A model generated the notes under the pieces. That model was not told the DNA's origin. It worked only from the letters and a program-made list of their open reading frames with translations, and searched no databases. Below are positions 29,961 to 40,026 of a stretch of 64,000 nt of DNA, piece after piece. The translations under genes and the position numbers were made by a program. Source of the stretch: Planctomycetaceae bacterium (GTDB taxonomy: Bacteria > Planctomycetota > Planctomycetia > Pirellulales > Pirellulaceae). The first letter of the stretch is position 1, and each line of letters opens with the position of its first letter. Location of the stretch: the NCBI GenBank assembly GCA_007694185.1, contig RECD01000100.1, positions 1-64,000 of the forward strand. The letters are read 5' to 3'.

Positions 29961-31163
29961 ATGAGTCGATGGCTGTGGCGAATCGTCGGAGGGGCCGCGG
30001 TCCTGACGCTGGTGATGGCGAGCGGTTGGTGGTTGCGTCCCGCCGCGGTGGCGGTCGACTGGGCGGTCGTCGATCGGGGGCCGTTGACGGTCACCGTTCG
30101 CGAGGAGGGGCTGACGCGGATTCGCGAACGTTACGAGGTGTCGACACCGTTGGCTGGTCGGTTGATGCGGATCACCCTCAGCGTCGGTGATCGGGTCGAG
30201 GCGGAACAGACGGTCCTGGCCCGGATGGAGCCGAACTTACCGTCGCTGCTCGATCCCCGAGCGATCGCGGCGGCGGAGGCACGCGTTCGGGCGGCAGAAC
30301 GCCGACAGCAGGTCGCACAACTGCTTTGGGATTCCGCCAGCATCGAGGCCGAGCACGCCGAATCCGAGCGGGCTCGGTTGTATCAGTTGAAATTGCAGGA
30401 GGCGGTCGCTGATTCAGAAATGGATCGGGCGGAATTGGAATCGCGGCTAAAAGCGGATGCCCTGCGGGCCGCGCAGTACGGTATTGAGATCGCTCAATAC
30501 GAACTGGAACTTGAAAAGTCGGCGTTGTTGTTGACGAAGTCCGACTTGACGGGAGAAGCGGAAGCGATGGAGTTGGTGATCCGGTCTCCGATCGACGGTC
30601 GCGTGCTGCGGTTGCACCGGGAGGACTCGGCGGTCCTCCAGGCCGGTACGGTGTTGATGGAGATCGGCGATCCGGGAGACCTGGAGGTCGCTGTCGACGT
30701 CCTGTCGCGAGACGCGGTTCGGATCCGCTCCGGCGCAGAGGTGCGGATCGATCGCTGGGGCGGTGACCAACCGCTCGCGGGGCGGGTTCGCTACGTCGAG
30801 CCGTCGGGATTTACGAAGGTCTCGGCGATGGGAGTTGAGGAGCAGCGGGTCTATGTTGTCATCGATCTGGAAGGCCCCCCGGAGCAACGCGAGTCGCTCG
30901 GGGATCAATTTCGAGTCGAAGCCGAGATCACCGTCTGGCATGCGGATTCGGTCGTCCGACTGCCTACCGCCGCCCTGTTCCGGAGTGACCGCGATTGGGC
31001 GACGTTTGTCGTAATCGGCGATGTGGCCGAGCTCCGGCTGCTGGAGATCGGCCAGTTGAACGAATCCTTCGCCGAGGTGCTGGCGGGAATCGAAGTCGGC
31101 GATCGGGTGATCGCCTACCCCAGCGATCGGGTGACGACCGGGGTTCGGGTCGCACCTCGTTAG
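29961..31163 (+). CDS. HlyD/MacA-family periplasmic adaptor
   Basis: The 400-residue protein has one N-terminal membrane anchor (VLTLVMASGWWLRPAAV). A biotinyl-lipoyl-like half follows (RYEVSTPLAGRLMRITLSVGDRVEAEQTVLARM), then a long alpha-helical hairpin rich in Ala, Glu and Arg (about residues 85-195), the second lipoyl half (VIRSPIDGRVLRLHREDSAVLQAGTVLMEIGD), and a beta-barrel/membrane-proximal end. It completes an ABC-type tripartite exporter with the two preceding genes; the start is 60 bases after the permease stop and has AGAGG before it. No TolC-like outer-membrane gene lies nearby. A terminator follows at 31185. Confidence 0.92.
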   Translation: MSRWLWRIVGGAAVLTLVMASGWWLRPAAVAVDWAVVDRGPLTVTVREEGLTRIRERYEVSTPLAGRLMRITLSVGDRVEAEQTVLARMEPNLPSLLDPRAIAAAEARVRAAERRQQVAQLLWDSASIEAEHAESERARLYQLKLQEAVADSEMDRAELESRLKADALRAAQYGIEIAQYELELEKSALLLTKSDLTGEAEAMELVIRSPIDGRVLRLHREDSAVLQAGTVLMEIGDPGDLEVAVDVLSRDAVRIRSGAEVRIDRWGGDQPLAGRVRYVEPSGFTKVSAMGVEEQRVYVVIDLEGPPEQRESLGDQFRVEAEITVWHADSVVRLPTAALFRSDRDWATFVVIGDVAELRLLEIGQLNESFAEVLAGIEVGDRVIAYPSDRVTTGVRVAPR

Positions 31164-31184
31164 TGGCAAGCCGGTGTCGCACCG

Positions 31185-31211
31185 GGTGTGGCGACGCCAC
31201 CACCTATTTTT
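31185..31211 (+). terminator. Intrinsic terminator after the exporter genes
   Basis: A GC-rich hairpin (GGTGTGGC, three-base loop, GCCACCACC, with one bulged base) is followed two bases later by five T. It lies in the short gap between the HlyD-like gene and the convergent flhB. Confidence 0.5.
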
Positions 31212-31215
31212 CCTT

Positions 31216-32016
31216 CTAAATGGGATCGCCTCGCAGCACCGATGGGGAGCCGCCGCCTGCGGGCCGCGCCGGTTCGCGGAGTGCCTTTCGCCGCTGACGC
31301 AGTTGGGGGTCGCCTTGCGATTCCCTCAGTTCCTCTCGCAACTCCTGATCGGTCATCTTCAGGTCCTCCTCATGACGCCAGCGCTGGAAGCCGTAGTCGA
31401 ACGCACCGAGCAGAAGCAGGACGAGTGCGATACGGAGCGCGATGTCGGACAGGTTTTCGAACAACGCCGGGACAAGGCTCGGAAGCGGTTCGGACCCGAG
31501 GGACAGCCAGGCCTGGCCGTCAGCCCGGAGCGTCAGCCAGGCCACCCCCAGGATGGCCGCAATCTTACCGATCCCGAAAACGATCCGTAGCCAACTGCGA
31601 GGAGACACGAGCCGTCGGAAGCCGGCCAATGGGTCGATTCGGCTCCACTGCGGCGTGACGGCGGGTACGGCCAGCAGTGGCCCGGTTTGGGCGACATGGA
31701 CGAGGATCGCCGCGAACAGCAAGACGAGCAACAACGGCAACACGGCCATCGTCGCGATCGCCGCCACGCCGACCAATCGCTGGACCGCATCTTCGACGCT
31801 CCAGGAGGGATCCAGCCCACGTGCGAAGGCATCGGACCACAGCGAAGTGAGGCGATGGCAGAGCGGTCCGCCCAGGTACCGAATGGCCAAGAGGGCGACG
31901 ATCAGCGATCCGGAGGATGCGAGATCATGGCTCTTGGGGACTTGGCCACGTTCCCGCGAGAGTTGACGTTTGCGCTCGCTGGCCGGATGTTTACGCTCTT
32001 CGCCGTTGGTGGACAT
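31216..32016 (-). CDS. flhB: FlhB-like flagellar export protein lacking the NPTH domain
   Basis: The 266-residue protein has the FlhB N-terminus (ERKRQLSRERGQVPKSHDL), four hydrophobic segments (SLIVALLAIRYLGG; VGVAAIATMAVLPLLLVLLFAAIL; IVFGIGKIAAILGVAWL; ALRIALVLLLLGAFDYGF) and the cytoplasmic linker helix DYGFQRWRHEEDLKMTDQELREE...GDP. In full-length FlhB/YscU (about 350-380 residues) this linker leads into the autocleaving domain with NPTH. Here the frame ends about 29 residues after GDP (near residue 237) with an unrelated proline-rich tail. No NPTH-encoding frame is found between the stop and the convergent adaptor gene. Length, domain edge and stop are seen directly. Whether it is natural or a deletion is not known. 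Confidence 0.88.
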   Translation of the reverse strand: MSTNGEERKHPASERKRQLSRERGQVPKSHDLASSGSLIVALLAIRYLGGPLCHRLTSLWSDAFARGLDPSWSVEDAVQRLVGVAAIATMAVLPLLLVLLFAAILVHVAQTGPLLAVPAVTPQWSRIDPLAGFRRLVSPRSWLRIVFGIGKIAAILGVAWLTLRADGQAWLSLGSEPLPSLVPALFENLSDIALRIALVLLLLGAFDYGFQRWRHEEDLKMTDQELREELRESQGDPQLRQRRKALREPARPAGGGSPSVLRGDPI

Positions 32017-32134: not shown

Positions 32135-32923
32135 CTAGTCGGGTCCGAACCAAACCTGGGACAGGCCGTCGACGGCGCCTTGCAGTTCTTCGCGGAACAG
32201 GTAGCCGGCGGAGCCGATCGTCAGGGTGGTCACAGCCAGCAAAGCGAGCACGTTCAGGCTCATCCCGACCGCCAACACGTTGAGTTGGGGCAAGGTGCGA
32301 CTGACCAACCCGGTCACGATGTTGCTGAGCAGCAGTGCCAGCAAAACCGGCGCGGCGACACGAATCCCGGCGGCCACGGAGTTCGTCCACTGGCCGATCA
32401 ACAGGTCGAGCATCGGCTCCTGCACGCGAACTTCGCCCGGCGGCATGGCGACGAAACTGTCGATCATGGCGGCGAGCACGAGGCGATGACCGCCGATCGC
32501 GAGAAAGATCGCGACGATCAGCAAGCCGATCCAGCGGGACAATGTCGGCAGCGATTCACCGGTGTTCGGATCGACCGCCACTGCCAGTTGCAGGCCGCCG
32601 GCACCGGACGTCAGTTCTCCTGCGGATTGCAAACCGAGCATGACGATCCGGACGGTCGAGCCGATCAACCAGCCGACGATCGCTTCCCGGGTTAGCAGCA
32701 GCACCAGTTCGATGGGATGGAGTCGCGCGGCATCGGAGGACTCGCCGAACCCGGCGACGGTCGGCAGGATTAGCAGCGTGATCAGTAATGAAAGGGTGGC
32801 CCGGATGCGATAGGGGACGCCGTTTCCGATCGCCGGCATGGCGATCAGGGCGGCCGAAATCCTGGTCAGTACCAACAGGACGAGCAGCGGGTGCTGTTCG
32901 GACAGGTTCAGCAAATCGTTCAT
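32135..32923 (-). CDS. fliR: Flagellar export gate protein FliR
   Basis: The 262-residue membrane protein has repeated hydrophobic segments and FliR marks: LLVLLVLTRISAALIAMPAIGNGVPYRIR at the start, TREAIVGWLIGSTVRIVMLGLQSAGELTSG in the middle (the E-x-x-x-G pattern conserved in FliR/SpaR), and AAPVLLALLLSNIVTGLVSRTLPQLNVLAVGMSLN. It forms the export gate with FliP and FliQ. ATG 32923 lies 5 bases after the fliQ stop; the longer frame would overlap fliQ. Operon order is fliP, fliQ, fliR, small ORF, flhB. Confidence 0.93.
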   Translation of the reverse strand: MNDLLNLSEQHPLLVLLVLTRISAALIAMPAIGNGVPYRIRATLSLLITLLILPTVAGFGESSDAARLHPIELVLLLTREAIVGWLIGSTVRIVMLGLQSAGELTSGAGGLQLAVAVDPNTGESLPTLSRWIGLLIVAIFLAIGGHRLVLAAMIDSFVAMPPGEVRVQEPMLDLLIGQWTNSVAAGIRVAAPVLLALLLSNIVTGLVSRTLPQLNVLAVGMSLNVLALLAVTTLTIGSAGYLFREELQGAVDGLSQVWFGPD

Positions 32924-32928
32924 CGGAT

Positions 32929-33192
32929 TCAGGGCATGGCGGCCGAGACGAAGATCTGCTGGGCGAACTCGACGAGTCGCCCCATCAGCCATGGCAGGCA
33001 CGCGATCGTCACCGCGGACATGGCGACCAATTTCGGCACGAACGATACGGTTTGGTCTTGAACTTGGGTGAGGGCTTGGAGCAGCCCGACGATCAGGCCG
33101 ACGGCCATGCCGACCAACAGGATGGGGGCGGCCAACAGCAAGGCTGCCAGCAAGCTTTGGCGACAGAGATCGACAGCGGTGTTGGCGTCCAT
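32929..33192 (-). CDS. fliQ: Flagellar export gate protein FliQ
   Basis: The 87-residue protein has two hydrophobic helices and the FliQ pattern: AVDLCRQSLLAALLLAAPILLVGMAVGLIVGLLQALTQVQDQTVSFVPKLVA, where Q-x-Q-(D/E)-x-T and the P-K motif are conserved. Length (86-90) is exactly that of the family. It is a component of the FliPQR gate in the basal body. It lies 71 bases after fliP and 5 bases before fliR. Confidence 0.95.
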   Translation of the reverse strand: MDANTAVDLCRQSLLAALLLAAPILLVGMAVGLIVGLLQALTQVQDQTVSFVPKLVAMSAVTIACLPWLMGRLVEFAQQIFVSAAMP

Positions 33193-33263: not shown

Positions 33264-34214
33264 CTAGCCGATCGTTCCGAAGGAGTCCATCAGCATCTGG
33301 ACGACCAATCGCCAGCCGTCGACCAGCACAAACAGTAGCAATTTCAAAGGCAGCGAAATCACGGCCGGTGGCAACATCAGCATGCCCATCGAGATCGTCA
33401 CGCTGGCGACGACGAGATCGACGATCAGGAACGGTAGGTAGATCTGGAACCCCATCAAAAACGCGGTTTTGAGTTCGCTGATCAGGAACGCCGGCAGCAA
33501 AACCCGTAACGGGACTTCCTCAAACGTTTCGGGGGACGGGCCTTCGGGACGTAGGTAGCCGAAGAACAAATGGACGTCATCGTGATTCCCGGCGATGTCG
33601 ATCTGATGTGACATGAACTCCCGGATCGGAACCACTCCCGCCTCGACCGCGTCTTCCCAGGACATGTCGATCGCAGGGTCGATGTAGGGTTCGATCGCCG
33701 CTTGATGCACGCGGGTCCAGACCGGGGCCATCACGAACAGCGTCATGAAGAGGGCCAAACTGGTCGTCACCTGCGCCGGCGGCAGCGATTGCAACCCGAT
33801 GGCCTGCCGCAGCAATCCCAACACGATGACGATCCGGACGTAGCACGTCGTCATCAACAAGATGGCCGGCGCGAGGCTGAGTACGGTCAGGGCCAGCATC
33901 ACCTTGAGGCTGCCATCCAGACCTTCCGGCCGGGTCCAACTGTCGGGGTCGGTCCAATCGTCCGAACCGCTCGGCTCGTTCGTATTGGCGGTGGACTTCA
34001 GCAGTTCGCCGACCGAAACGAGCACGGCGGGGGGCGGTCGGGTGACGATTTCCGGTGCCGGCTCTTCGTCCGCTCGGGGCGGCGTCGCATGGCCGTGCGC
34101 CGTGGTGACGGGGAGCAGGAGTGCCGCCAGCAGCGGCACGATGCCCCACAACGTCGCGCTGCCGATCGATCGGAAGCGGTCAGCGATTGGCTGAGTGGTT
34201 GACGGTCGGCGCAT
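33264..34214 (-). CDS. fliP: Flagellar export gate protein FliP
   Basis: The 316-residue protein has a signal peptide (about 45 residues, ending near TAHGHA), then an extra linker of about 60 residues rich in Pro, Thr and Asp. The FliP core follows: TVLSLAPAILLMTTCYVRIVIVLGLLRQAIGLQSLPPAQV, LALFMTLFVMAPVW, AFLISELKTAFLMGFQIYLPFLIVDLVVASV and the PLKLLLFVLVDGWRLVV end. These are the two FliP signatures. FliP is usually about 245 residues; the extra is the N-terminal linker. ATG 34214 is chosen to fit the signal. It is first in the minus-strand flagellar run and divergent from the acyltransferase gene. Confidence 0.94.
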   Translation of the reverse strand: MRRPSTTQPIADRFRSIGSATLWGIVPLLAALLLPVTTAHGHATPPRADEEPAPEIVTRPPPAVLVSVGELLKSTANTNEPSGSDDWTDPDSWTRPEGLDGSLKVMLALTVLSLAPAILLMTTCYVRIVIVLGLLRQAIGLQSLPPAQVTTSLALFMTLFVMAPVWTRVHQAAIEPYIDPAIDMSWEDAVEAGVVPIREFMSHQIDIAGNHDDVHLFFGYLRPEGPSPETFEEVPLRVLLPAFLISELKTAFLMGFQIYLPFLIVDLVVASVTISMGMLMLPPAVISLPLKLLLFVLVDGWRLVVQMLMDSFGTIG

Positions 34215-34552
34215 GGCGCGAATCACGATCGTGCTCTCGACGAAGGAACCGGGGCGACGGAGGCGTCGAGTGGTCGAATCCCCTCCGCCCGGTTTCCGCA
34301 GGAGCTTAGGGAATTGGCGAGCGGCGACGAAAGGTCGATCTCGAACTTGCCCCAAGCGGCCCGGCTCGGGCGAGTTCGAGCGATAGCCGGCAGACCAGAC
34401 GGACGAGAGAAGCGAAGGGCGATCTCCGTTGACGCCCGGTCTGGGGTCTCCCTATGGTCGGCCAGGATTGGCCGGTCGGCGTCGCGTCTGAGCATGAATC
34501 GCAACCGAGGGGCTGACGACGGTGAAACGGTTCCGACGCGCAGGAAGGAAAA
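34215..34552. other. Divergent control region of the flagellar locus
   Basis: This 338-base region separates fliP (minus) from the acyltransferase gene (plus). It must contain promoters for both directions, but I see no clear sigma-28 or sigma-54 site. AGGAAGGAAAA before 34553 is the ribosome binding site of the acyltransferase gene. Confidence 0.45.
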
Positions 34553-35596
34553 ATGAAGCAGGGTTGTCACAGGATCTCGAACTGGCTGCGGACCCAGTTT
34601 CGAAAGGGTCCGCTCCAGCGTTTGCGGCACCGGTTCGAGCATGTGGCGCTGCGCGGTATGGCGTGGGCGATCCCGCGGTTGTCTCGGGCCAGGGTGCTGC
34701 GGCTCGCCGATCGGATCGGTTCGATCGCCCTGCGTCTGGATCGCGACGGACGTCAACGTGGCCTGCAAAACCTCGAAGCGGCCGTCCGTCACGGAGGGCT
34801 GGATTTGCGTGGACGCCATCCCGATGAAGTGATGCGGGACTGCTATCAAAACTTTGCCCGGGGAATTCTCGACCTTTTTTGGTTCTCCCGATTGACGCCT
34901 GAGACCATGGGAGATTGGGTCGAGATCGAAGATGAAGCCCGGCTGCGGGGATTGTTGGAGACAGACCAGGGGGCGATCTTTTTGACCCCGCATTACGGGA
35001 TCTTCGAGTGGTGCAGCTTGGTGATGGGTTTTCGTGGGCTGCGGTTGAACATCGTCGCCCAAGACTTCGCGAACCCGTCGTTGACCGACCTGTTCCGACG
35101 GGCGCGGGAGCACAGCGGGCACCGAATCCTGTCACGACAGGGGGCGATGTTGAAATTGCTAAGGGAGGTCAAGCGGGGCGGGTTCGTTGCCATGTTGCCG
35201 GATCTGAACATCCGGCCGCAGGGGGTGGCGAGCGAGGTGAACATGTTCGGTCTGCCCACCTACCTGACTTCGGTCCACACCGAGATCGCCCAGCGGTGCC
35301 AGACGCCGATGTTCGTCGCCGTCTGCGAACCGCTGGCGGATGGACGGGCCAAATTGCGGGTATTGGACGTGATTCGGGTCCGACCCGATGCCGACCGCGA
35401 AACGGTGGTCCAGACGACCCAGGCGGTCTGGGATCACTTCGAAGAGGCGATCCGTCAACGCCCCGAACTTTGGCTCTGGATGTATCGCCACTGGAAGTAT
35501 GGGCCGAGCGAAACGCCGAGCGATCGGGCGACGGATCGGGCGACACCCGCCGGGGTAACTCGGCCGGCCGCCGAGCCCTTGCGAGCGGCCGGTTGA
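34553..35596 (+). CDS. LpxL/HtrB-like lysophospholipid acyltransferase
   Basis: The 347-residue protein matches the lipid A acyltransferase family. It shows TDQGAIFLTPHYGIFEWCSLVMG, with the catalytic H-x(4)-(D/E) as HYGIFE, then REHSGHRILSRQGAMLKLLREVKRGGFVAMLPDLN with the family's glycine/aspartate block, and the terminal PELWLWMYRHWKY, where W-x-(Y/H)-x-R-(F/W) is typical. It would transfer an acyl chain to a lipid A precursor or another lysolipid at the inner membrane. It has no obvious link to flagella but sits between the two arms of the flagellar locus. The start has a strong AGGAAGG ribosome binding site. Confidence 0.85.
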   Translation: MKQGCHRISNWLRTQFRKGPLQRLRHRFEHVALRGMAWAIPRLSRARVLRLADRIGSIALRLDRDGRQRGLQNLEAAVRHGGLDLRGRHPDEVMRDCYQNFARGILDLFWFSRLTPETMGDWVEIEDEARLRGLLETDQGAIFLTPHYGIFEWCSLVMGFRGLRLNIVAQDFANPSLTDLFRRAREHSGHRILSRQGAMLKLLREVKRGGFVAMLPDLNIRPQGVASEVNMFGLPTYLTSVHTEIAQRCQTPMFVAVCEPLADGRAKLRVLDVIRVRPDADRETVVQTTQAVWDHFEEAIRQRPELWLWMYRHWKYGPSETPSDRATDRATPAGVTRPAAEPLRAAG

Positions 35597-35815
35597 CGAA
35601 TGCCTTCCCGGTCCCGGCAATGCCGCTAGGTCGGATCGGCTCGGTGGTCGGGGCAGCTTGGAGCGACTTTTTTCGGCATGATTTCCAGAGATCCTGCGGC
35701 CGGCGCTCCGCCCCGGCTCCTCCCGGATCGACCTGGATTCGGGGTGCCGCGGTGGCCTAGGATTCGGCCGGACACCGAAATCGATCGTCGATCACTTGTA
35801 TGGTTGGAACTTCCG

Positions 35816-37894
35816 ATGATGGGATGGTTGTTGAGGCATCGGGATCTCGTCTTGCCGCTCGGGATTGTCGTCTGTTTGGGCGTGATCTTGGTCCCCCTGC
35901 CCCCCTGGCTGATCGACCTGTTGCTGGCAGGCAACATCGCGCTCGGGATCCTGGTCTTGCTGACGACGCTGTGGGTGGCGAAGCCGCTGGACTTCAGCAT
36001 TTTTCCGTCGCTACTCCTGGCCACGACCCTGGCTCGGCTTGGGCTCAACGTCGCGACGACACGGCTGATCCTGACCGGTGCCCAATCGGGGGGGGCAGAA
36101 GCCGCCGGCGGGATGATTCGCGGTTTCGGCGAGTTCGTCGCGGGGGACCGAGTCGAAGTCGGGTTGGTCCTGTTCGGGATCATCGTGTTGATCCAATTCA
36201 TCGTCATCACGAAGGGCGCGACGCGGATCAGCGAGGTCGCTGCCCGCTTTGCCCTGGACGGGATGCCGGGTAAGCAAATGGCGATCGATGCCGAGTTCAA
36301 CGCGGGCTTGATCGATGAGGGTGAAGCCCGCCGCCGCCGTCAAGAACTCTCGGACCAAGCCGACTTTTATGGGGCGATGGATGGGGCAGGCAAGTTCGTG
36401 CGGGGCGATGCCATCGCCGGGATCGCGATCATGGCGATCAACATTCTCGGCGGATTGTGGATCGGCATCGTGCGGATCGGGATGTCGCCTGGCGAGGCGG
36501 TTGACCTGTTTACCAAACTGACCATCGGTGACGGTTTGGTCAGCCAAGTGCCGGCGTTGTTGATCTCCTTGGCCGCCGGGCTGTTGGTAACCCGCGGCGC
36601 CGCCAGCAGCGACCTGCCTCGCGAGTTCCTGACGCAGTTGTTCAGCAGTCCGCGGGCGTTGATGGTCGCCGGCGGCTTCATGATCTTGATGATCGTAACC
36701 CGCCTTCCGGCCCTGCCGATGGCGACGTTGGGATTCGGCTGTGTGGGGTTGGCTGCGGTGATGACCCGGCAATCGGTCCGCGATCAAGCCGCGGCGGCCA
36801 AGTCCGAGATCGACGCGCTTTCCAATCCGCCGTCGGCTGTCAAACGGGTCGAAGACTACCTGGCGGTTGACCCGATGGAATTGGCGATCGGACTGGGATT
36901 GTTGGATCTTGCCGATCCGAGTCGAGGTGGCGATTTGATGGAGCGAATCGCGTCTGTTCGAAACTCGATCGCGTCCGACATCGGCATCGTGCTACCCAAA
37001 GTTCGTGTGCGGGACGATGTCTCGCTGGGGGATCAGGAATACGAGATTCGCATCGCCGGCAACCCGGTGGCGAGGTCGAGCGTCCGTCCTGCTTGTTGGC
37101 TGGCGATCGACAACGGTTCGACCACCGGCCTGATTGCCGGGGAGCCGACTCGAGAACCGGTCGACGGCAGGGCCGCGGTTTGGGTGCAACCGAGCCATCA
37201 TGACCAAGCGGGAATTTACGGCTACGAGACGCTCTCGCCCGGGGCCGTCATCGTTCGACATCTCCGCGAGATCGTGCGAAGGCACGCGGAAGAGCTGTTG
37301 ACGCGGGATGCGACGAAGCAGCTGATCGACGAACTGCGTCGGGTGTCGCCGACGGTCGTTGACGAATTGATTCCGGATGTGCTGAAGCTGTCCGAGGTTC
37401 AACTGGTTTTGCAGTGGTTGCTCCGGGAGGATGTGCCGATTCGGCAACTGGGCGTGATCTTGGAGACGCTCGGCGACCGGGCGGTGAAGTCGGCGGAGCC
37501 GTACGCCTTGGTAGAGGCCGTGCGGCAACGGTTGGCTCGCACCATCAGCGGCAGGTATCGCGATTCGCAGGGGATCTTGCATGTCGTTACGATCGACCCG
37601 GGCTTGGAGGAACGGCTCGCTTCCGAGGTCGAACCGGGGGAGCGAGGTCTTTCCGTGAGGCCGGCACCCGGAGTTCGGGAACAGGCTTGCGAAGGGATCG
37701 AAAAAAGCGTTAAGGAACTGATCGGTCGCGGGCATCCGCCCGTGTTGTTGGTTTCCCCGCGGGTGCGTCCCGCGGTCCGGCAGTTGACTGCCCCCCGGAT
37801 GCCCGGGGTCGTGGTCCTGTCGTTCGATGAGGTGACGGCGGACACGCCGATCGAGTCGCACGCGGTAGTGAACGAATCCGAAGCGACCATTTAG
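35816..37894 (+). CDS. flhA: Flagellar export gate protein FlhA
   Basis: The 692-residue protein has about eight N-terminal membrane helices followed by a soluble C-terminal domain. It contains the FHIPEP signature around GMPGKQMAIDAEFNAGLID and the conserved DFYGAMDGAGKFVRGDAIAGI loop, both decisive for FlhA/YscV. The soluble part has VRNSIASDIGIVLPKVRVRDD, ending in PVLLVSPRVRPAVRQL. ATG 35816 (or the adjacent ATG 35819) matches the family start; the open frame to 35678 is arginine/proline-rich and lacks the pattern. It acts as the cytoplasmic docking platform and proton-driven export motor. flhF follows 67 bases later. Confidence 0.96.
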   Translation: MMGWLLRHRDLVLPLGIVVCLGVILVPLPPWLIDLLLAGNIALGILVLLTTLWVAKPLDFSIFPSLLLATTLARLGLNVATTRLILTGAQSGGAEAAGGMIRGFGEFVAGDRVEVGLVLFGIIVLIQFIVITKGATRISEVAARFALDGMPGKQMAIDAEFNAGLIDEGEARRRRQELSDQADFYGAMDGAGKFVRGDAIAGIAIMAINILGGLWIGIVRIGMSPGEAVDLFTKLTIGDGLVSQVPALLISLAAGLLVTRGAASSDLPREFLTQLFSSPRALMVAGGFMILMIVTRLPALPMATLGFGCVGLAAVMTRQSVRDQAAAAKSEIDALSNPPSAVKRVEDYLAVDPMELAIGLGLLDLADPSRGGDLMERIASVRNSIASDIGIVLPKVRVRDDVSLGDQEYEIRIAGNPVARSSVRPACWLAIDNGSTTGLIAGEPTREPVDGRAAVWVQPSHHDQAGIYGYETLSPGAVIVRHLREIVRRHAEELLTRDATKQLIDELRRVSPTVVDELIPDVLKLSEVQLVLQWLLREDVPIRQLGVILETLGDRAVKSAEPYALVEAVRQRLARTISGRYRDSQGILHVVTIDPGLEERLASEVEPGERGLSVRPAPGVREQACEGIEKSVKELIGRGHPPVLLVSPRVRPAVRQLTAPRMPGVVVLSFDEVTADTPIESHAVVNESEATI

Positions 37895-37961: not shown

Positions 37962-39029
37962 ATGCAGATCCAAACATTCCGCGCCGCTAGCTTGCAGGAA
38001 GCGTTGGACGACATCCGCCGAGAATTGGGGGATGACGCTTCGGTTTTGCACACACGTCAGGTCCGAGAGGGCTGGATGGGTTGGCTGGGCAGAACATCGG
38101 TCGAAGTGACGGCCGGGATCCGAGCGGAGGCGACGCCGACCGGGCCGCGGCCCGAGAATCGGGCGACAGATCGACTCTCGACACGTTTCGGGTATCCGTT
38201 GGAGTTGCAAGACCTGCGAGACCTGTTGACCCTAGCGGGTGTCGAGGGCCAACTCGCGAACCGTTGGATCGAGGAGACTTACTCGCTCGGTTCCACGCTG
38301 TCCAACGGGGTCGAACCGGGCCAATGGATCGACGGATTGCGACAGACGGTCGCCCGCGGGATCCGCATCGCCGGTCCGATCCAATGCCCCCCTGGCGAAC
38401 GCCGTGTCGTGGCGTTGGTCGGCCCTACCGGGGTTGGGAAGACGACGACGATCGCCAAGTTGGCCGCGGGGTTCCGTTTCGAATCACGCCGGAACGTCGC
38501 GTTGCTGACGGTCGATACCTTTCGGATCGCGGCGGTCGATCAGTTGCAGGCCTACGCAGATGTGATGGGCTTGCCGATGGAGGTGGTTCAGGACCCCGGA
38601 GAGATGCGTGGTGCCCTGGAACGGTTGAGTGCCGCCGATTTGGTGTTGGTCGACACGGTCGGCCGCAGCCCTCGGAGCGAATCTCGGATCCAACAGTTGA
38701 AGCAAATGTTGGATTCCGCGGGGCCCAACGAGACCCATTTGGTACTCAGTGCTACCAGCAGTCGCGAGACGATCCTCGGCATTTTGGAGGGGTTCGCGGC
38801 GGTCCGGCCGACCGCCACGATCCTGACCAAGTTGGACGAGACGCCGCAATTGGCGGGTGTGCTGGGGGCCTTGGCCGGCCGGGAGTTGGCGATCAGTTAT
38901 TTGACGACCGGGCAACAGGTGCCGGACGACATCGAGCCGGCGGATCGGGAAACGTTGGTGAGCAACCTGCTCTTCAACCCTGTCTTGGCGGTGCCGCTGA
39001 GCGTTTCGGTCCGTCGTCAGGCAGCTTGA
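37962..39029 (+). CDS. flhF: Flagellar SRP-like GTPase FlhF
   Basis: The 355-residue protein starts with MQIQTFRAASLQEALDDIRRELGDDASVLHTR, the FlhF opening. After a divergent N-domain it carries the SRP GTPase core: G1 GPTGVGKTT at 154-162, G2 DTFRIAAVDQLQAYA, G3 DTVGRSPRS (where SRP GTPases usually have DTAGR), G4 TKLDE, and ISYLTTGQQVPDDIEPA. FlhF controls where and how many flagella form. The partner FleN/YlxH, often next to flhF, is not found between flhF and fliA. Confidence 0.94.
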   Translation: MQIQTFRAASLQEALDDIRRELGDDASVLHTRQVREGWMGWLGRTSVEVTAGIRAEATPTGPRPENRATDRLSTRFGYPLELQDLRDLLTLAGVEGQLANRWIEETYSLGSTLSNGVEPGQWIDGLRQTVARGIRIAGPIQCPPGERRVVALVGPTGVGKTTTIAKLAAGFRFESRRNVALLTVDTFRIAAVDQLQAYADVMGLPMEVVQDPGEMRGALERLSAADLVLVDTVGRSPRSESRIQQLKQMLDSAGPNETHLVLSATSSRETILGILEGFAAVRPTATILTKLDETPQLAGVLGALAGRELAISYLTTGQQVPDDIEPADRETLVSNLLFNPVLAVPLSVSVRRQAA

Positions 39030-39176: not shown

Positions 39177-39195
39177 GAAGCCCAAGATGGGCTTC
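39177..39195 (+). other. Perfect hairpin in the fliA leader
   Basis: GAAGCCC, loop AAGAT, GGGCTTC. The stem is 7 perfect pairs. On the plus strand no T-run follows. On the minus strand it is followed by TTTTTG, as an intrinsic terminator would be. Confidence 0.55.
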
Positions 39196-39218
39196 GAATC
39201 GGAAAAGCGTTTGATCAC

Positions 39219-39223
39219 GGAGG
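39219..39223 (+). promoter_or_regulatory. Ribosome binding site GGAGG of fliA
   Basis: GGAGG is 5 bases before the ATG at 39229. It favours this start over the in-frame ATG at 39187, which sits inside the hairpin. Confidence 0.75.
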
Positions 39224-39228
39224 ATTGG

Positions 39229-40026
39229 ATGGCAACGACAGTTATGCCCGACGAAGAGATTCAACAAGTTTGGGCCACTTATCGCGAGCTGCCCAAGGAT
39301 TCGCCCGATCGGGAGTCGTTGCGCAATCGGTTGGTCGAACGTTACATGCCCTTGGTTCGGTACAACGGCGAAAAGATCTGGCAGCGGTTGCCCGACGGCG
39401 TCGAGTTGGACGACCTGGTCAGCGCCGGCATCTTTGGCCTGCTCGACGCGATCGACGCGTTCGATCTCGAGCGGGGAGTGAAGTTCGAAACCTATTGCGT
39501 TCCCCGTATCCGGGGCGCGATGCTGGACGAACTCCGCACGATGGACTGGGTGCCGCGCCTGGTACGGAGCAAGGCGAGCAAGCTGAATGAAGCCAAGAAG
39601 CAGCTGGAGACGAAGTTCGGCCGGGCGCCGACCGATCAGGAACTCTCTGCTCACATGGAGATCCCGCTGGCGGAGCTCGAGAAGATGCAGCAGGAGGCCA
39701 ACGCGGTCGGGTTGGTTTCGCTGAATAAGAAATGGTACGAGACCGACAGTTACAAGGACGTCCGAGAAATCGATGTCCTCGAAGACAAGAAGGGTGAGGA
39801 CCCGACTCGGCGGGTCCAAAAGACCGACCTGATGCGGATGGTCACCAAGGGTCTGAATCGCAACGAGCGATTGATCATTATCCTTTATTATTATGAAGAG
39901 CTGACCATGAAGGAGATCGGCGCTACGCTCGATCTGTCCGAATCACGGGTTAGCCAGATGCACAGCGCGATCGTCAGCCGCCTGCAGGAGCAGTTGGGCC
40001 GGCGCCGGGCCGAGTTCGGTGCCTGA
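39229..40026 (+). CDS. fliA: Sigma factor of the FliA/WhiG (sigma-28) type
   Basis: The 265-residue protein has sigma-70 regions 2 to 4 without region 1: LVERYMPLVRYNGEKIWQRLPDG and the region 2.2-2.4 block VELDDLVSAGIFGLLDAIDAFDLERGVKFETYCVPRIRGAMLDELRTMDWVPR. Region 3 follows, and then the region 4 helix-turn-helix LTMKEIGATLDLSESRVSQMHSAIVSRL. The DWVPR and SESRVSQMHS phrases are typical of FliA. It would direct RNA polymerase to late flagellar and chemotaxis genes. GGAGG supports the start. It follows flhF by 199 bases, with a sigma-28-like promoter of its own between them. Confidence 0.95.
   Translation: MATTVMPDEEIQQVWATYRELPKDSPDRESLRNRLVERYMPLVRYNGEKIWQRLPDGVELDDLVSAGIFGLLDAIDAFDLERGVKFETYCVPRIRGAMLDELRTMDWVPRLVRSKASKLNEAKKQLETKFGRAPTDQELSAHMEIPLAELEKMQQEANAVGLVSLNKKWYETDSYKDVREIDVLEDKKGEDPTRRVQKTDLMRMVTKGLNRNERLIIILYYYEELTMKEIGATLDLSESRVSQMHSAIVSRLQEQLGRRRAEFGA

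Follow-up and report, generated by a model that had tools for sequence, protein, structure and literature searches.

A truncated FlhB lacking its autocleaving domain within a conserved export gate of a planctomycete without flagellin, rod or hook genes

The window, a 64,000-nucleotide stretch of one contig from a Planctomycetaceae genome (G000; 99.0% complete, 288 contigs), carries a flhB gene at 31216..32016 on the minus strand. The gene starts with ATG, encodes 266 amino acids and was characterized by the Bac_export_2 profile, an HMM of the FlhB C-domain and phmmer. Residues 6–247 matched positions 1–236 of the 335-position Pfam profile (E 3.5e-56). Furthermore, residues 3–250 aligned with FlhB in two solved structures, the FliPQR-FlhB gate 6S3L (E 2.6e-32) and 8Z5S (E 2.7e-34), indicating that the four-helix membrane domain with its gate loop is present; we regard the fold as settled by this match to solved FlhB. 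The open reading frame stops 29 residues past the conserved GDP of the linker. Both the frame and the profile match thus agree with the earlier note, which had described a preserved membrane part and linker followed by a 29-residue tail. Against TIGR00328 the protein reached 164.7 bits, the cut-off being 349.25. The coding composition of the frame resembles that of the neighbouring frames, and the flhB end is located 31 kb inside a contig of 149.5 kb. As an observation, the truncation is confirmed as real.

The remaining gate genes all lie in the window as well. On the minus strand we found fliR (32135..33001; Bac_export_1, E 1.5e-50), fliQ (32929..33192; Bac_export_3, E 9.6e-27) and fliP (33264..34355; FliP profile, E 7.8e-71). 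For fliR and fliP the longest frames are given, with uncertain starts and with matches beginning at residues 40 and 156, respectively. The plus strand carries flhA (35678..37894), which is full length including its cytoplasmic domain (FHIPEP 2–655 of 657, E 1.2e-232), and, assigned by profile matches, flhF for an SRP54-type GTPase (37962..39029) and fliA of the sigma-28 type (39187..40026; 92% identity to the congener G003). A lipid A acyltransferase-like gene (34553..35596, plus strand) sits between fliP and flhA, as it does in the congeners G002, G003 and G004. Elsewhere in the genome, on contig C157, profiles revealed FliF and FliG fused in one open frame of 827 aa, along with FliH, a FliI that includes the T3SS ATPase C-domain, and a weak FliJ; FliI and FliH exceeded the Pfam cut-offs, while FliJ remained under its own. 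G003 shares this fusion, with a length of 904 aa, and a similar long frame occurs in G056 (frames at L085:7631-10114, L086:9508-12222 and L087:7429-9900 for the three genomes). Among Pirellulales with and without flagella, many loci have a sulfotransferase-family gene beside flhB or flhA (L038, L041, L045, L047, L049, L051-L053, L055, L060, L066, L080, L082, L097, L103). This gene next to flhB and an HATPase-like gene before fliF were considered as markers specific to degraded loci and were rejected; since both also occur in flagellated relatives, they are ancestral neighbours.

To search for the missing C-domain, an HMM trained on the FlhB proteins of 51 intact relatives was run on the window in six frames. 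Apart from what is left of the linker in flhB itself (E 0.037), it found nothing, the next hit lying at E 1.6. Only 52 bp separate the flhB stop from the convergent adaptor gene at 29961-31163. The autocleaving NPTH domain is therefore missing from the protein, no frame between the stop and the adaptor gene encodes it, and no separate FlhX-like piece was found in the window, all as the earlier note had stated. A search of the whole genome at E<=10 gave a single FlhB match, and hence neither a second, full-length flhB nor a free FlhX-like C-domain in trans. The same search picked up an isolated C-domain end of 62 residues in G013 (E 2.8e-11), so that an FlhX-like piece with ordinary similarity would have shown up in G000 too. 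With the C-domain absent both in cis and in trans, we take the product of 31216-32016 to be FlhB by descent and not a switch protein. In the flagellated relatives, the motif itself proved variable: by our own count, 41 of 52 distinct intact flagellar FlhB sequences read NPTE, nine NPTH, one NPTQ and one NSTH (loci L002-L031, L063, L065, L075-L082, L121), so that this flagellated group does not conserve the histidine of NPTH.

Genome-wide, profiles for flagellin, Flg_bb_rod (rod and hook), FliK and FliE gave no match in G000, and the same profiles did match in flagellated relatives and controls. The flagellin, rod, hook, FliE and FliK genes expected of a functional flagellum are thus missing from this genome. 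Among the congeners (G001, G002, G003 and G004), they are likewise absent in G002 and G003 and present in G001 and G004. In consequence, there is no hook-to-filament switch to make. The premise of a flagellum built in this organism is wrong, and the idea that its export must be switched in some other way is not supported. We also tried to follow a FliA regulon through flagellin promoters and abandoned this approach: the motif TAAAG-N17-CGAT occurs in some other Pirellulales but is absent in the clade of the window, and its information content lies hardly above that of shuffles (15.7 against 14.0-14.4 bits). Sigma-28-like TAAAG-N17-CGAT sequences, weak relative to shuffles, were noted upstream of some flagellin genes in relatives (L135, L136, L138, L143, L144). 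Many flagellin N-domains in the data set belong to open frames of great length (600 to >1600 aa), which hints at large flagellins that carry inserts.

Comparison with the congeners indicated how the 3' end of flhB may have been lost. G001 possesses an intact FlhB with a normal C-domain and the motif NPTE. Its flhB is followed by an alanine-racemase-like gene (named from its translation, not from a profile) and then by HlyD, FtsX and ABC genes convergent to flhB. In G000, the gap between flhB and the same HlyD gene is just 52 bp; the latter codes for a HlyD-family adaptor (29961..31163, plus strand), is convergent to flhB and lies outside the system. Because G001 carries this gene downstream of an intact flhB, it marks the edge of the putative deletion. 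DNA similarity to the G001 flhB ends at the linker, placing the putative junction at 31164..31290 (no strand assigned). The simplest account would be a deletion of the roughly 1.4 kb that G000 lacks relative to G001, namely the flhB 3' end and the alanine-racemase-like gene. In G003 the HlyD cassette is absent and cysD/cysN adjoin flhB; the region was thus rearranged more than once, and the deletion in G000 stays an inference. An insertion of the ABC-FtsX-HlyD genes was rejected as the cause of the truncation, as these genes also lie downstream of the intact flhB in the flagellated G001. Within the genus, the cleavage motif forms a graded series: NPTE in G001 and G004 (the FlhB of the latter being cut by a contig end), DPDG in a retained C-domain in G003, and no domain in G000. 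The gate tree joined G000 and G003 as sisters (support 100), with G001/G004 next (support 100). A degraded motif in G003, where the axial proteins are already gone, points to relaxed selection before truncation. Of the earlier suggestion that a deletion had disabled the switch, a deletion at the flhB end is indicated by the comparison with G001, but no working flagellum would have been disabled by it, as G003 combines DPDG with the absence of axial proteins.

We then surveyed 219 genomes of the class with a completeness of at least 90%, taking the counts from the tables by hand. FlhB was classed as intact-type or degraded by a Bac_export_2 cut at E 1e-90, which was set after viewing a set of 60 genomes. 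Flagellin was present in 122 of 125 genomes with an intact-type FlhB, the exceptions being G035, G048 and G053, the last with its motif degraded to NQAE. Conversely, none of the 56 genomes with only degraded or truncated FlhB contained flagellin, a group that may include a fragment, as in G190; two of them (G136, G190) had one rod/hook match each. The other 38 genomes had no FlhB, and flagellin was found in four of these. On the tree, the intact/degraded label changed at least 10 times, seven of these changes being forced by starred branches, although exact numbers are uncertain because several degraded rows (G043, G016b and G019b among the degraded genes) sit on long branches. A single degraded clade was rejected by the AU test (p 1.4e-5), and with it an origin from one ancient non-flagellar clade. 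Only four supported independent pairs were available, all or nearly all of them concordant and none discordant (p 0.125); as related genomes are not independent, the strength of the pattern rests on its recurrence and not on the p-value. Three genomes (G030, G035, G048) have lost flagellin and kept an NPTE FlhB, which suggests that the filament may have been lost first and the switch later. The gate of G000 itself nests among flagellated planctomycete gates beside G001/G004 (support 100) and does not group with NF-T3SS, in a tree built without injectisome sequences.

Despite these losses, we take the gate to be conserved rather than decaying. Residues near-invariant in flagellated relatives are retained in G000 at 41 of 41 positions in FliP, 18 of 18 in FliQ, 18 of 18 in FliR, 97% of 144 in FlhA and 86% of 29 in the membrane part of FlhB. 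Between G000 and G003, pN ranged from 0.05 to 0.28 (lowest for FliA) and pS from 0.41 to 0.71, values that are indicative only, since synonymous sites approach saturation and overlaps are included in some frames. Across the 60 relatives, FlhA occurs in every degraded genome and FliF in nearly all, G009 and G043 being the exceptions. The FlhA proteins of G038 and G043 (C94, C13) gave two partial profile matches with a gap from about 408 to 454, unlike all other genomes. Further reduction concerns the ATPase complex: a convincing FliI (E < 1e-15) was found in 12 of the 56 degraded genomes, including G000, and not in the other 44, and FliHIJ, carried by relatives, is missing from several degraded loci. 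In some relatives the degraded system coexists with a second FlhB, which is of the NPTH type and falls into a deep clade of its own. G012, G016, G031 and G033 each encode two FlhA and two FliF in addition to flagellin and rod genes. In the class survey, the matches listed for each of G183, G196, G217, G224, G229 and G257 comprise a full FlhB and a truncated one; G205 and G237 have two matches each and were left out because the second is absent among the matches listed. Two gate sets per genome were observed as L017/L052, L070/L048, L072/L053 and L073/L054, one set being vertical with a truncated or degraded FlhB and the other deeply separate with an NPTH FlhB. Such pairing looks like a flagellar replacement.

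Gene content, conservation, repeated loss and the second flagellar set of some relatives can be read directly from the genomes. The truncated FlhB is an evolved state and not an error. In the explanation that we consider best, and to which we give about an even chance as a whole, a gate without rod and switch was kept for a non-flagellar task. The ancestor would have been a flagellated cell with an NPTE-type FlhB. The lineage of G000 may then have lost the axial structure (FliE, rod, hook and filament) together with the ruler FliK, leaving the FlhB C-domain, the hook-to-filament export switch, idle, as without hook or filament it has nothing to switch. Decay of the cleavage motif, as in the sister G003, would have been followed in G000 by the deletion of about 1.4 kb that removed the C-domain. 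Selection would have preserved the FlhB membrane domain within the FliPQR-FlhB-FlhA gate, together with FlhF, FliA, the FliF-FliG fusion and FliHIJ. We infer this order of losses, as well as the deletion and any export. The repeated loss in relatives suggests that the bare gate has another job, and it is most likely a membrane machine that still works, in a role other than the flagellar one. The FlhB membrane domain is known to wrap FliPQR, its loop taking part in gating (PMC7064499), and the C-domain is required for the switch to late substrates (PMC7911332). The gate of G000 probably exports a single substrate class and does so with no switch of specificity. Caution about this predicted export is advised by Salmonella, in which a changed FlhB C-domain or linker impairs export (PMC3708937, PMC3640470). 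Most likely, the gate passes one substrate class or, in deeper cases, serves as a scaffold with export lost; with no convincing FliI in 44 of the 56 degraded genomes, those cases may not involve ATPase-driven export.

The main competitor, rather unlikely in our estimate yet the weightiest of the alternatives, is that the FliF-FliG ring and the FliPQR-FlhB-FlhA gate act as a membrane scaffold with a role other than export, for instance in a hat- or nanotube-type envelope structure or as a polar landmark. The missing switch domain and, where reduction goes deeper, the missing ATPase would then reflect lost export. The scarcity of FliI and the disappearance of FliHIJ from several degraded loci while FliF and gate stay would fit this, as would reports from elsewhere of nanotubes and of a hat-shaped structure in the membrane that is linked to fT3SS core proteins (PMC9380563). 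However, G000 retains FliH, FliI, a weak FliJ and the cytoplasmic docking domain of FlhA, and no structure of the hat or nanotube type has been shown for planctomycetes. Less probable still is a functionless relic of a lost flagellum, its leftover genes being on their way out. The absence of axial genes and switch domain, the rearranged locus in G003 and the very long branches of some degraded genes (G043, G016b, G019b) would be expected of such a relic, but all or nearly all near-invariant gate residues persist in G000, pN is far below pS in the indicative comparison with G003, intact frames last in many families, and the degraded system endures beside a second flagellar system.

It is very improbable that the flhB 3' end results from faulty assembly or sequencing. 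The assembly is indeed split into 288 contigs, but the gene ends well inside one of them, many separate genomes likewise contain FlhBs truncated at the C-terminus, and G000, G002 and G003 agree in lacking flagellin, rod/hook, FliK and FliE. Scarcely credible, finally, is the proposal of the earlier note that a working flagellum employs a switch protein in trans. In its favour stand FliA, FlhF and the export engine, all of them retained, but the axial genes, FliK and a separate C-domain are all missing from the genome, which refutes the idea as far as profiles can see.

Beyond G000, we offer with some reserve, and at slightly less than even confidence, a wider reading of the retained-gate explanation: Planctomycetia may have repeatedly turned the flagellum into a non-flagellar machine that can coexist with a separate flagellar system, which would amount to a widespread second function of the gate. 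Such a machine would consist of FliF-FliG, the FliPQR-FlhA gate and a switch-less FlhB, often with no ATPase, and would need neither rod, hook and filament nor a substrate switch. The pattern represents a natural dissection of FlhB, in which the membrane part is kept and the autocleaving switch is gone only where the filament is gone, so that gate role and switch role have been separated in evolution. With the bare gate repeatedly retained under selection, culturable bacteria would also allow experiments on the function of an export gate that has no flagellum. Non-flagellated bacteria with partial sets of flagellar genes are already known (PMC3459982, PMC12199754), and a literature search of incomplete coverage returned no report of such a bare gate or of flagellar remnants in planctomycetes.

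Several known systems resemble the one described here. The hat-shaped inner-membrane structure related to fT3SS and the nanotube platform (PMC9380563) share fT3SS core proteins with no flagellum on top, but were observed in species with an fT3SS and have no demonstrated link to planctomycetes. Buchnera likewise has a reduced flagellar set, proposed for secretion (cited in PMC3459982); its flagellar basal bodies are kept, in contrast to G000 with no rod, hook or FliE. The 'Myxo' T3SS of Myxococcales (Abby and Rocha 2012, PMC3459982) is comparable in its conserved T3SS core without rod, hook, filament or secretin. It is, however, a branch of the non-flagellar T3SS (PMC3459982), whereas the G000 gate nests among planctomycete flagellar gates, and the G000 system retains FliG, FlhF and FliA. 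In the non-flagellated Lysobacter enzymogenes, too, the gate was kept for a new role: according to PMC7277350 and PMC9927559, its fT3SS remnants function in twitching motility and export a heterologous flagellin. This bacterium belongs to another phylum, the accessible text of these papers reports no FlhB truncation, and the planctomycete loss recurs in many lineages. In comparison with flagellar FlhB (TIGR00328/Bac_export_2; 6S3L; PMC7064499), the G000 protein has neither C-domain nor cleavage site and belongs to a genome without a flagellum, but its whole membrane domain and the start of its linker align with flagellar FlhB end to end.
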